Below, in pieces: positions 34,533 to 38,980 of a stretch of 64,000 nt of DNA. The position numbers and the translations under genes were made by a program. Position 1 is the first letter of the stretch, and every line of letters begins with the position of its first letter. The notes beneath the pieces are model-generated. The model had not been told where the DNA came from. It was given only the letters and a program-made list of their open reading frames with translations, and searched no databases. The stretch comes from Cytophagales bacterium (GTDB lineage: Bacteria; Bacteroidota; Bacteroidia; Cytophagales; 172606-1): assembly GCA_030446715.1 (NCBI GenBank), contig JAUJMU010000002.1, positions 401,854 to 465,853 on the forward strand. Direction: 5' to 3'.

Positions 34533-34676
34533 TCAGACACCGGGACTCTGAAAGATTACCCGAATGGGCGCACCAACTCTGCAAGGACAGTTTTCCCGGT
34601 TCGGCTACGGACACGGCTTGGATGCCAGCTTAAACTATACTATGTATATAGGAATTAAAATATAAAATCCTGATGC

Positions 34677-34708
34677 TTTGACTTATGTCCTGAGTACTAT
34701 TACCTTTG
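34677..34708 (+). promoter_or_regulatory. Consensus promoter upstream of the ferredoxin region
   Basis: TTTG (34677-34680) and TACCTTTG (34701-34708) are 20 bp apart, a perfect Bacteroidota consensus. Transcription would start near 34715. A 30-codon frame follows (ATG 34745, stop 34835-34837; starts MNYDFKTFQVRG) before the ferredoxin's own promoter. Otherwise the gap 34533-34909 shows no gene. Confidence 0.5.
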
Positions 34709-34744
34709 CCGGAACGTCGTATCCCTTCTACTTGTTTTATAAAA

Positions 34745-34837
34745 ATGAATTATGACTTCAAAACCTTTCAGGTTAGGGGGAATAGCAGAACAGGTGGTTT
34801 GATGGGCACTTATCCGGGGATGCTTTGCGCCTTTTAA
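34745..34837 (+). CDS. Possible 30-residue small ORF behind a consensus promoter
   Basis: The frame starts about 30 nt after the expected start of transcription from 34677-34708 and encodes MNYDFKTFQVRG...GTYPGMLCAF. I do not recognise it. It may be a leader peptide or only a piece of a longer ferredoxin leader. Confidence 0.2.
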   Translation: MNYDFKTFQVRGNSRTGGLMGTYPGMLCAF

Positions 34838-34857
34838 ACTTTCTATCCGTATTTTTG
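34824..34857 (+). promoter_or_regulatory. Promoter of the ferredoxin gene
   Basis: TTTG (34824-34827) and TATTTTTG (34850-34857) are 22 bp apart; the ferredoxin ATG follows 53 bp later. Confidence 0.55.
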
Positions 34858-34909
34858 TTTTTCGGGTAAAACCTTTTACAACAGATAAATACAAAAAAGC
34901 TAAGTTCAC

Positions 34910-35257
34910 ATGGCTATAATGATCACTGATGAATGCATCAACTGCGGTGCATGCGAACCTGAATGCCCCAATACGGCCATCTACGAAGGTGGCGTGGAAT
35001 GGACCTGGGCAGGCGGGACGAAACTGAAAGAAGTAGAACTGGCTGACGGAGCCACCATTGACGGCAAAACACCTCAGGACCCGTTGTCCAACGAATATTA
35101 CTATATCGTATCCGATAAATGTACTGAGTGCATGGGTTTTCACGAAGAACCGCAGTGCGCTGCCGTTTGTCCGGTGGATTGCTGCGTGGATGATCCTGAT
35201 TACCGCGAAACGGAGGAAGAACTGCTGGGCAAGAAGGCGTGGATGCACGGGGAATAA
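34910..35257 (+). CDS. 2[4Fe-4S] ferredoxin
   Basis: 115 residues. First cluster motif Cys9, 12, 15 and 19-Pro ([12 protein letters not shown]); second motif Cys71, 74, 83 and 87-Pro ([18 protein letters not shown]), with eight residues between the second and third Cys as in the Allochromatium-type ferredoxins. A 50-residue insertion lies between the two motifs. A short acidic tail follows. The protein carries electrons at low potential in the cytoplasm. It is near and divergent from the acyl-CoA reductase gene, which may be functionally linked. Its own promoter is at 34824-34857 and a hairpin follows at 35274. Confidence 0.95.
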
Positions 35258-35273
35258 AACATCGGTAAGCAAA

Positions 35274-35304
35274 AAAATCCGTGGCTGTGCCCGGCCCGGA
35301 TTTT
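35274..35304 (+). terminator. Probable terminator of the ferredoxin gene
   Basis: Arms 35274-35281 and 35297-35304 (AAAATCCG/CGGATTTT) around a 15-nt GC-rich loop, ending in TTTT, 17 bp after the stop codon. Confidence 0.5.
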
Positions 35305-35327
35305 CCGCCAAAATTTTGATTGGGGTA

Positions 35328-35358
35328 TTTGCATAATCAGCCGGAAACCTTACTTTTG
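35328..35358 (+). promoter_or_regulatory. Promoter of tRNA-Glu
   Basis: TTTG (35328-35331), 19 bp, TACTTTTG (35351-35358): an exact consensus, 18 bp before the tRNA. Confidence 0.65.
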
Positions 35359-35375
35359 CATCACAATTCAAAAAT

Positions 35376-35447
35376 GGCCCGTTAGTGCAGCGGTTATCAC
35401 GCCTCCCTTTCACGGAGGAAACACGGGTTCGAGTCCCGTACGGGCTA
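35376..35447 (+). tRNA. tRNA-Glu (UUC)
   Basis: 72 nt including the discriminator A. The acceptor arms GGCCCGU/ACGGGCU pair (first pair G-U), the anticodon stem CCTCC/GGAGG encloses the loop CTTTCAC with anticodon TTC, and the T arm ACGGG TTCGAGT CCCGT is intact. CCA is not encoded. A terminator follows, and mobile DNA lies directly downstream. Confidence 0.95.
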
Positions 35448-35461
35448 CGAAAATGAATGAG

Positions 35462-35490
35462 AGCACGCTAAAAACGTGCTTTTTTTGTTT
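35462..35490 (+). terminator. Terminator of the tRNA gene
   Basis: AGCACG (35462-35467) pairs with CGTGCT (35475-35480), followed by a T-run. Confidence 0.7.
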
Positions 35491-35502
35491 CTGGTAGTGC
35501 GC

Positions 35503-35676
35503 TGATGCCCAAATTTCAACAATTAGTCAGAAATGTTTTACCATTTCTGGAAAAGATATACAGCCCTTTTTGCTACCAGATTGATACCGGCTTTATTGCC
35601 TCTGAAAAACGAACTTCAGCAGGCAATGAGAGCAAAATACGACCTTGTTTACAACCGGAAGGGCATTCAACTTAGG
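35503..35676 (+). CDS. Doubtful 57-residue ORF ending at the MITE
   Basis: The frame starts MPKFQQLVRNVLPFLEKIY and ends in the first bases of the MITE. Without the MITE it would stop at nearly the same place (TAA formed by the target site). I do not recognise it; it may be a remnant of an element integrated next to the tRNA. Confidence 0.2.
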
Positions 35677-35785
35677 TAGTGCTACAAATAGGGTGCTACC
35701 TGAATTTGAAAACTTGGTTCAATGTGGTATTAAGGGTGGTTTTGAACTTGGAGCAGCACCCTATTTGTAGCACTACCTCAACTTA
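35667..35785. mobile_element. MITE with perfect 23-bp terminal inverted repeats and 8-bp target duplication
   Basis: The element itself is 35675-35777 (103 bp). Its ends 35675-35697 and 35755-35777 are exact inverted copies (GGTAGTGCTACAAATAGGGT... and reverse). TCAACTTA is directly repeated on both outer sides (35667-35674 and 35778-35785), which is the mark of transposition. The 57-bp centre has no coding capacity. GG ends with an 8-bp duplication fit several transposase families (IS6, ISL3, IS1595 groups), so the parent element is not identified; the IS next to it has different ends. Confidence 0.88.
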
Positions 35786-35814
35786 AACCTTCAGATAAAG
35801 CGTTGATCCAAATT

Positions 35815-37216
35815 CAGCAATTCCCGGTTTGGCTTATTCAAGTTGGACTTGATACATATTGGCAACGTGCTGCCAGGCTTCTTTCATGGCAAGACAAGGC
35901 AGAAGTTTAAAGACGGCCCGGAGAGATTCCCACATCCTGGCTTTGGTTTTCAAGCTGGCAAGAATAGCCCGAAAGGTTTTACAAGCCCCTTGTTGAATCT
36001 GGTCGAGGGTAAAAGCCAGCAGCATCAGATACGCTGGCACGGTGGAGAGTTGGTCCTTGCCATGGCCGTAGTTATGCTCAAAGTGATAGCCCTGGTTCTT
36101 GAGCGTATTGAACGTCTCGTTCTCATCACCTACGGTGGCAATGTTCGCCTCCCGGCTCCATTGTCCAGCGGCTACGGCCGGCTTTAGCCAAAAGCAAGAC
36201 ATTGCCTTTGTGCAAAGTAAGGTCGGTAATCCAGGTAAATTCTGTGAGCAGATTGCCTTTGAAATCTACCTGTTGGTAGCGCAAGAAATTGACCCGTATC
36301 TGGGACTGACTGCTGCATAAAGGCAGGTTATTGTGCCATTCCAAGTGATGGGTGATGTTTTTCTCCTCAAAACGGTAGTGATTGGATTGCTCGCGGGAGT
36401 CTACCTGTTTGAAAAGAGCTTTATGGGAATCGGGCTTTACTCCAATCAGGTAGTGATACCGGGCCTCAGGAATCTGCTCGATATGAGCAGCATTGGCATA
36501 CAGGGCATCTTCTGCCAGCAGCGCTTTGAGCTTGGGATAGCGCTCTTTCAAATGCTTTACCAAGCGTTTGGCCGCGTTGCGTTCACAATCATTCTTCTCT
36601 TGTCCGTCCTGTCGAAGGATGGCTTCAGCGTCCAGGGGCAATACCTCTCGTTTATGAGGATGTACCATCACGGCTGCCAGCATTGAATGAGAATAAGTGA
36701 CTTGCCCGGATTTATGTTCTTTAGTAAGGCAGTGCTCACAATGCACCTTCTGAGAAGAAAAATGCTCTGCCCCATCAATGCTTACCACCACCATCTGCTT
36801 GAAGTAACGGTAAGAAGCAAAAACCCGCTCTTTTTCACCTTGCCCATCACTTTGCCAGACAGGTCTCTTACTTTAGCGGCCTGGACTTTGTCAAGTACTT
36901 CCCGCATCTGGGTGTCGGAACACAACTTACTGATCTTATAGACTTCCATCAGATTCTTATCCTCCTGCCGACTGCGCAGGCTGAAGTTGAGTAAAGACGG
37001 ACTCTTCAAGGAAAACATGGCAAAAGCCGCTGAAACAATGTCTCCCAATGAGGGACTACTGTTACTGCGCCGGTGATCCTCTAACTGACCAAAACCCTTG
37101 TGCAACTCCCCGTACATACTATCGAAACTTAGCTGATCTTCACTTGCCCTTTGTATCTTGCTCATCGGGCAAACTTACCCCTATTACCCCTTCCATTGCC
37201 AAACCGGGAATTGCTG
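35815..37216 (-). mobile_element. Insertion sequence with 19-bp terminal inverted repeats, decayed
   Basis: The ends 35815-35833 and 37198-37216 are exact inverted copies (CAGCAATTCCCGGTTTGGC and reverse). They enclose 1402 bp filled by one transposase on the minus strand, which is broken into three frames. TCCAA occurs 3 bp outside the left end and directly outside the right end, so a 5-bp target duplication with uneven ends is possible but not proven. The left end lies 29 bp from the MITE. Confidence 0.88.
35834..37165 (-). pseudogene. DDE transposase, broken by two frame changes
   Basis: Three frames together make one transposase: 37165-36782 (MSKIQRASEDQLSFDSM..., N-terminal helical part), about 36820-36126 (VVVSIDGAEHFSSQKVHCEHCL with the first Asp, SHSMLAAVMVHPHKREVLPL, QDGQEKNDCERNAAKR, LLAEDALYANAAHIEQI with the second Asp) and 36202-35834 (ENETFNTLKNQGYHFEHNYGHG, the region of the last Glu). 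The first change is at GAAAAAG near 36829, where a one-base loss or -1 slippage joins the frames. The second is caused by 34 extra bases (36122-36155) placed inside the expected WTMEN...ETFN segment. A functional enzyme is unlikely. Confidence 0.85.
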
Positions 37217-37320
37217 TCCAAGAACCCTATAAAATAGTAAACATATTGAAATACAGACAGTTATATCCTAAAAACAATTTATTGGGAATAAACTGAAAGC
37301 TGCCAATTAAGCAGATAATA

Positions 37321-37370
37321 TAAAAGCAGAAAGGCTCCTGTGAATACTCACAGGGGCCTTTCTGCTTTTA
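37321..37370 (-). terminator. Long terminator hairpin
   Basis: Arms 37322-37343 and 37348-37369 pair over 22 bp with one G-U pair, loop ATAC, with A/T runs on both sides so that it works in either direction. It lies downstream of the minus-strand gene at 37468. Confidence 0.8.
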
Positions 37371-37467
37371 TCACAGCTATGAAAACATAGTGCGTATCCG
37401 GAGAAAACCAGTCTGAGGTTGAGGACATAAATTGCCACAAAAGTGAATTCAGCCTGTATCTTATGGC

Positions 37468-37815
37468 TTAATGATCCGGTAGCCGTAAATATCGGTTGAT
37501 AATGCCCTTACCCCATTCGGCACGAATGATATTAATAATCGTGTACAGCAGGAAGCTTAGGGTGGGTAACCACCAGTGCTGCAGGGCAATGACGGACAGG
37601 TTGTCGTGTTCGAGCAAACGTGCTTCAGAATAAAACAATGGCCCGGTCAGGCACCAATAAACGGCGGCTGTCACGTAGGCAACCACAATACCGAAAAGTG
37701 CCCATAAGATTATTTTTGCTCTCCGGCTTTCTTTTACAGCTGTCATAAAGAAGATCGCCCAGAATAGCCCTCCGAATATAAGCCCAATCTTAAGCACGAA
37801 GAGTGAAAGATCCAT
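37468..37815 (-). CDS. Small membrane protein of unknown function
   Basis: 115 residues with three hydrophobic segments (about 5-25 LFVLKIGLIFGGLFWAIFF, 33-55 AKIILWALFGIVVAYVTAAVYW and 80-98 WWLPTLSFLLYTIINII). I do not recognise the family. It stands alone. A TAAATTTG box on the minus strand (37848-37855) could be its -7 element, without a good -33 partner. The 330 bp upstream (37816-38146) hold no convincing gene. Confidence 0.65.
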   Translation of the reverse strand: MDLSLFVLKIGLIFGGLFWAIFFMTAVKESRRAKIILWALFGIVVAYVTAAVYWCLTGPLFYSEARLLEHDNLSVIALQHWWLPTLSFLLYTIINIIRAEWGKGIINRYLRLPDH

Positions 37816-38020
37816 TGAAAAGTGAACGTTCTGTAATTTTGTCTACACAAATTTATAAAATACGATTACAAATTATATTTTTTTTGACAAAAGTCCAGTT
37901 CTCAGGAATGAACTATCGTTGCGACCCACTGGGCCCGCTGAAGACTTGCTACCAGCGTACCGGAAGAGCAGAACGCGGAATGGATTATGGCTCGTGCTGA
38001 AATGGTTTCCAAACGGACTA

Positions 38021-38056
38021 AAAAAGCCGGATTGGTAAGTTACCAACCCGGTTTGG
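38021..38056 (-). terminator. Terminator of the gene at 38147
   Basis: Arms 38023-38038 and 38040-38054 pair imperfectly; read on the minus strand the hairpin is followed by GGCTTTTTTAG. Confidence 0.55.
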
Positions 38057-38146
38057 GGCGAAGACCTGTCAGGCTGCGGCTAGATAAAGTTACCGATGAG
38101 GCAAACCATCCGGTGGAACACTGCTCGCTCAAAATCGCGCAGCTAC

Positions 38147-38623
38147 TTAATCACCGGCCCTGCTGATCTGGGACAACTGATGCAATGATTTCAGCCTCGT
38201 CAAGGCTGGGTTTTCCGAACTGATCCGGAAGACATCGTCGAATTCCCGCACCCGCAGGATGATTCCGGAGCCATTGCCCATGCTGCTGCTCCTGAAACCG
38301 GTTACGTGCCGCAGATTCAGGTAAGCGATGCAGGATGCATTGTTTTCTACCTGAACCCAATCATTGCTTTGCTCCAGATACTCCGGTAAAATGACTGCGC
38401 TTTTGTACCCCTGCTTTGCTTCGAACACCTTGGTTCGGATGCCGCCCTGACCGAACAGAAAAAACTCTATCTGGTTCCCCCCATTCTTGATCTGAACCAT
38501 GTCGACCCGGTTCAGGTTGCCAGACTGGCTTTCGTCCCGTGAACTGACCCATACATCTTTGGTCTGCCCGAAGACAGAAACAGCAGCCAGGAAAACGCAT
38601 AAAAAAAGTAGATTTCTGATCAT
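38147..38623 (-). CDS. Secreted protein of unknown function
   Basis: 158 residues with a clear signal peptide (MIRNLLFLCVFLAAVSVFG, cleavage near residue 19-20). The mature part is hydrophilic and beta-rich (VDMVQIKNGGNQIEFFLFG, IRTKVFEAKQGYKSAVILP, ASCIAYLNLRHVTGF, GIILRVREFDDVFRI). No lipobox, no catalytic motif. I do not recognise it. Probably periplasmic; transcribed alone. Confidence 0.7.
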   Translation of the reverse strand: MIRNLLFLCVFLAAVSVFGQTKDVWVSSRDESQSGNLNRVDMVQIKNGGNQIEFFLFGQGGIRTKVFEAKQGYKSAVILPEYLEQSNDWVQVENNASCIAYLNLRHVTGFRSSSMGNGSGIILRVREFDDVFRISSENPALTRLKSLHQLSQISRAGD

Positions 38624-38980
38624 AATAATAAGGTAGTTTAAAAAGAACAGTTCAAATCAAGTTTACAGCTGCAAATGGGCAGCAGTTGTCTTCTATTTTC
38701 CGGAGGATAAACAGACACTGTAAATACGTCTGACTTTATAATGGTAATCTTCCGATAAGGCTTACAGGTACAAGATCGGGTTGGAAAATGAGAGGATAAT
38801 GGTTATCTGATTGCTGACCAGGACATACCAGAGAACCTGTTGCTCCGGCAAGACGGCTATCCGGGCGATGTAAACCATAATTTTACACCAGATTGAAACC
38901 TGCCGGTAACAGTGGCCGTACATATACCCACAATGCAACAATAATAACTACGATAACAAGTGGTTTTTAAGGTTGTTTAA

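Follow-up and report, generated by a model that had tools for sequence, protein, structure and literature searches.

A 103-bp element in the window, the 64,000-nucleotide stretch of a Cytophagales bacterium that we analysed, is a real mobile element without an enzyme of its own. Two IS1-type ends enclose its short core, which shows no clear similarity to IS1, and the element is very probably moved in trans by an IS1-family transposase from another source in the cell. The parent kind of this MITE, left unnamed in the preliminary description, is the IS1 family. The DNA itself shows unrelated insertion sites, target duplications, one empty site, IS1-like ends, and ends of left and right type in the older copies. 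Because of the ends and the duplications, we infer transposition in trans, the mover being an IS1 transposase that fits such ends.

Structure of the MITE in the window

The features of the element are listed in Table 1. Its description as 103 bp between TCAACTTA repeats with exact 23-bp inverted ends was confirmed. The two ends, GGTAGTGCTACAAATAGGGTGCT, are identical at 23 of 23 positions. This end occurs twice in the window, a count equalled in none of 100 dinucleotide shuffles (up to three mismatches); as the largest count in any shuffle was 0, chance was excluded. No third copy of the 23-bp end was found in the window; elsewhere in it, sequences weakly resembling the first 14 bases of the end were no more than chance level (six found, 4.29 expected). 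The inverted repeat extends imperfectly to 40-nt arms that are 85% complementary, and the GC content is 43% in the element versus 52% in the window. The predicted single-strand fold has an energy of −49.6 kcal/mol (z −6.75), and none of 200 shuffles was as stable.

Table 1 Features of the MITE (positions in the window).
Feature	Position	Strand
Left target-site duplication TCAACTTA	35667..35674	.
103-bp MITE, identical to five further copies in the genome	35675..35777	+	
Terminal inverted repeat, 23 bp; the side of the IRR-type arm in older copies	35675..35697	+	
Core, 57 bp, without clear similarity to the IS1 elements; the palindrome continues imperfectly	35698..35754	.	
Terminal inverted repeat, 23 bp; the side of the IRL-type arm in older copies	35755..35777	-	
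Right target-site duplication TCAACTTA	35778..35785	.

The preliminary description had also denied the element any coding capacity. As regards a transposase, this is correct; of the six reading frames, one stays open from end to end, as is visible in the read-through ORFs of the copies L003 and L005. The frames in these two copies, at most putative genes, were the longest MITE read-throughs seen. The element and one duplication together measure 111 bp, or 37 codons, with one frame open throughout; therefore, an element inserted in the matching phase would lengthen the protein and not break the gene.

A second IS (window positions 35815–37216) starts 37 bp past the MITE and has 19-bp perfect inverted ends (CAGCAATTCCCGGTTTGGC). 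Its DDE transposase, in pieces over several frames of the minus strand, resembles the IS1380, ISAs1 and IS1634 models no more than weakly, and three relatives at approximately 75% identity are present in genome G001. A 24-nt inverted repeat (37320–37371; 96% complementary, 4-nt gap) is probably a terminator.

Copies, insertion sites and an empty site

As checks, the preliminary description had proposed further copies, a longer IS with similar ends, and an empty site. A DNA search placed the MITE at 10 sites in the genome of the window (G000; 6.43 Mb, 25 contigs, assembly rated 98.15% complete), with 19 matches in all because the near-palindrome also matches in reverse. Six of the 10 copies, including that in the window, are identical over 103/103 bases, which supports the earlier impression that the element looks recent. 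The L007 copy matches this type at 97 of 103 positions, L008 and L009 are 89% and 85% identical to it, and L010 is decayed, with an internal duplication seen by eye. Exact 8-bp target duplications of seven different sequences flank 7 of the 10 copies. The duplication is 7 bp in L005 and 6/7 bp in L006, and L010 has none. The older copy L052, additional to these 10, lacks one too.

Outside this genome, one diverged copy was found in the same-genus genome G002, so that two of the eight family genomes searched (G000 itself counted) carry the element. The matches in G002 coincide, coordinates included, with those in the genome of the IS1 element L059, an uncultured Cytophagales MAG. A class-wide search, which scored only two candidates per genome and is thus a weak negative, matched 4 of 395 genomes, G000 among them. 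The matches in the other three were 24–35 bases long; the outer ends of the element were absent in the two inspected. The exact 23-bp end was not found in viral contigs, the element had no match in plasmids, and the search of Rfam families gave no match except a nearby tRNA.

Three copies lie inside reading frames, and the insertion sites are unrelated to one another. In L007, the insertion interrupts a resolvase gene, whose two pieces, scanned apart, match positions 2–69 and 75–144 of the Pfam Resolvase model. In G003, which belongs to the same family but to a different genus, this gene is uninterrupted and the target occurs once (GTCATTTG vs GTTATTTG); the L007 gene also has a frame-shifting one-base difference just past the insertion. 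The L003 copy adjoins a piece with a weak response-regulator domain match (E 0.011, under the cut-off), and the L004 copy sits in a 139-codon frame without a Pfam match. The remaining copies are between genes or in undetermined sequence. One identical copy (L002:1502-1604) lies between two genes that resemble susC and susD of one operon; its hairpin would be part of the joint transcript of these two genes.

The search for an empty site covered the window copy, L004 and L007. One was found for L007 but not for the copy in the window, where comparison of positions 34600–38800 with six family genomes gave no match across the site. This region did match the family genomes at a ferredoxin-like gene, a tRNA and the neighbouring IS. 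The flanks of L004 gave no spanning match in six relatives, and Pfam scans of the sequence on either side of the window copy, taken apart, gave no match.

IS1-type ends and the candidate parent

The end search with three mismatches returned one match belonging to a longer element. This IS1-type element (G000:C10:252944-253802) is 859 bp long and has the 8-bp duplication TGCTGCTG on both sides, the same length as in 7 of the 10 MITEs. It and an 866-bp relative (L059) in a same-genus genome are the longer elements with similar ends that had been proposed for a check. Against the window end, the C10 element matches at 20/23 positions on the left and 17/23 on the right, and L059 matches at 19/23 and 19/23. 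We used the IS1 family models NCBIfam NF033558 and Pfam PF03400. The C10 gene matches DDE_Tnp_IS1 with 49.8 bits and is broken by an internal TAA stop and by frame breaks; compared with L059, single bases have been added and approximately eight are missing where L059 reads FHTDDWESY. This stretch probably holds the second catalytic aspartate of the IS1 type. L059 has one open 256-aa frame, identified as an NCBIfam IS1 family transposase (171.2 bits, cut-off 100). The second base of its left end is changed, and no target duplication could be seen around it.

No intact transposase with matching ends was found in the 98.15% complete G000 assembly. The end pattern with up to two mismatches matched 22 times in G000 and five times in G002, and the backward control gave 0 matches in all four genomes searched. 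Partial relics with the same kind of right end are present at G000:C7:400673 and G002:C355:6787. A scrambled IS1 relic on the latter contig (L112, approximately 988–1240) consists of transposase-gene pieces joined to a piece like the end of the other IS (GGGAATTGCTG).

We compared the arms of the MITE copies with the ends of the two IS1 elements, which are themselves identical, left to right, at 17/23 and 18/23 positions. Arm-to-arm identity is 23 of 23 in the window type, 22 in L007 and 21 in L009, and falls to 19, 15 and 16 in the older copies L008, L010 and L052. In these three, arm 1 is nearer to the IS1 left end (21, 21 and 21 positions) than to the right end (18, 16 and 16). Arm 2 is nearer to the right end, both in the C10 element (21, 18 and 19 vs 19, 17 and 18 for the left) and in L059 (21, 19 and 20 vs 18, 16 and 17); the margin in L010 and L052 is one position against C10 and three against L059. 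By eye, the arms of the MITE and those of the IS1 elements show no likeness past base 23. The window core had a best score of 22 against the two IS1 elements, a value that 12 of 300 shuffles reached in one case and 15 in the other. For the other cores against C10, better strand, the score was reached by 6 (L052), 27 (L008) and 127 (L010) of 300 shuffles. Descent by internal deletion (type I MITE) is not established, as the core lacks clear homology to the IS.

Perfect arms would also be expected if selection on the palindrome maintained the element for its hairpin, in RNA or in DNA (a terminator, an mRNA stabiliser or a REP-like repeat). The strong predicted fold (z −6.75) and the identical copy between the two genes presumed to be susC and susD agree with such a role. 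However, pairing of the arms is not kept in the copies L010, L008 and L052, where it is about as low as in the IS1 elements, the sites are unrelated and three lie within reading frames. Rfam offered nothing beyond the nearby tRNA, no promoter-like site was found, and both terminator-like sites are outside the element; we consider retention as a hairpin very improbable. A rather unlikely variant of the mobile-element reading is that the MITE is mobilised by one of the other IS1-family elements of the genome, and that a relative of the C10 copy, lost or missing from the assembly, is not the mover. There are 14 IS1-transposase matches in G000, and two of these elements (L038 and L040) are flanked by clean 8-bp duplications and begin with GGTAGTG or GGTAATG, but each of their ends has 12 mismatches to the 23-bp window end, compared with three and six for C10.

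Under the preferred reading, a MITE moved in trans, an IS1-family transposase supplied from elsewhere in the cell would bind the 23-bp ends and join the element to a new site, where an 8-bp duplication would be left. The identical copies imply the recent presence of a functional transposase; none with matching ends was seen in the assembly. The simplest order of events would be two different IS1 ends, then arms made equal, then the latest burst, and the two identical ends may have helped this last expansion. More tentatively, the MITE line possibly started with a left and a right IS1 end, both later converted to the same 23-bp sequence, for which template switching inside the hairpin is one conceivable route, and this symmetry might have let the MITE outspread a parent that is now dead in this genome. 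Hairpin-directed template switching as the route to equal arms is a guess.

Comparison with known elements

The element is a fresh example of a well-known type, and the finding is ordinary genome biology, well supported. It documents in detail a MITE family with a nameable IS1 parent, in which old copies keep the two different ends of the parent and young copies have equal ends. It also illustrates how a MITE can outlast its parent within a genome.

The MITE shares with the IS1 family the GGTAGTG-type ends and the 8-bp target duplication, and the full-length elements nearest to it code for an IS1 transposase. It differs in being 103 bp long, in lacking a transposase gene and in having two identical ends, whereas the ends of the IS1 elements differ (17 and 18 of 23). 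ISAba3-like IS1 elements have 24-bp ends starting with GGTGGTG and 8-bp duplications (PMC6382973).

We searched for a description of an IS1-derived MITE in Bacteroidota and found none, in a limited look by titles and abstract openings that covered few subscription journals and is not proof of absence. Porphyromonas and Cardinium, both Bacteroidota, have MITEs. Porphyromonas is named in PMC10969869. As defined there, type II MITEs of prokaryotes are shorter than 500 bp and AT-richer, with inverted ends of up to approximately 30 bp, direct repeats and a stem-loop, and their likeness to an IS is confined to the ends (PMC10969869). By these definitions, the present element is a type II MITE, presumably mobilised in trans; all those traits are common to both, with no difference in kind. 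Its parent family is IS1 and its host belongs to Bacteroidota.

MITECca01 of Cardinium is approximately 240 bp long and has a parent of the IS982 family with intact copies present (PMC9769881). It resembles the present element as a MITE spread by a parental IS and found between genes, in other mobile elements and, more rarely, in protein-coding genes (PMC9769881). The two differ in parent family and size, the present MITE being 103 bp, and in the state of the parent, as MITECca01 has intact IS982-family copies beside it, whereas the C10 IS1 gene is broken.
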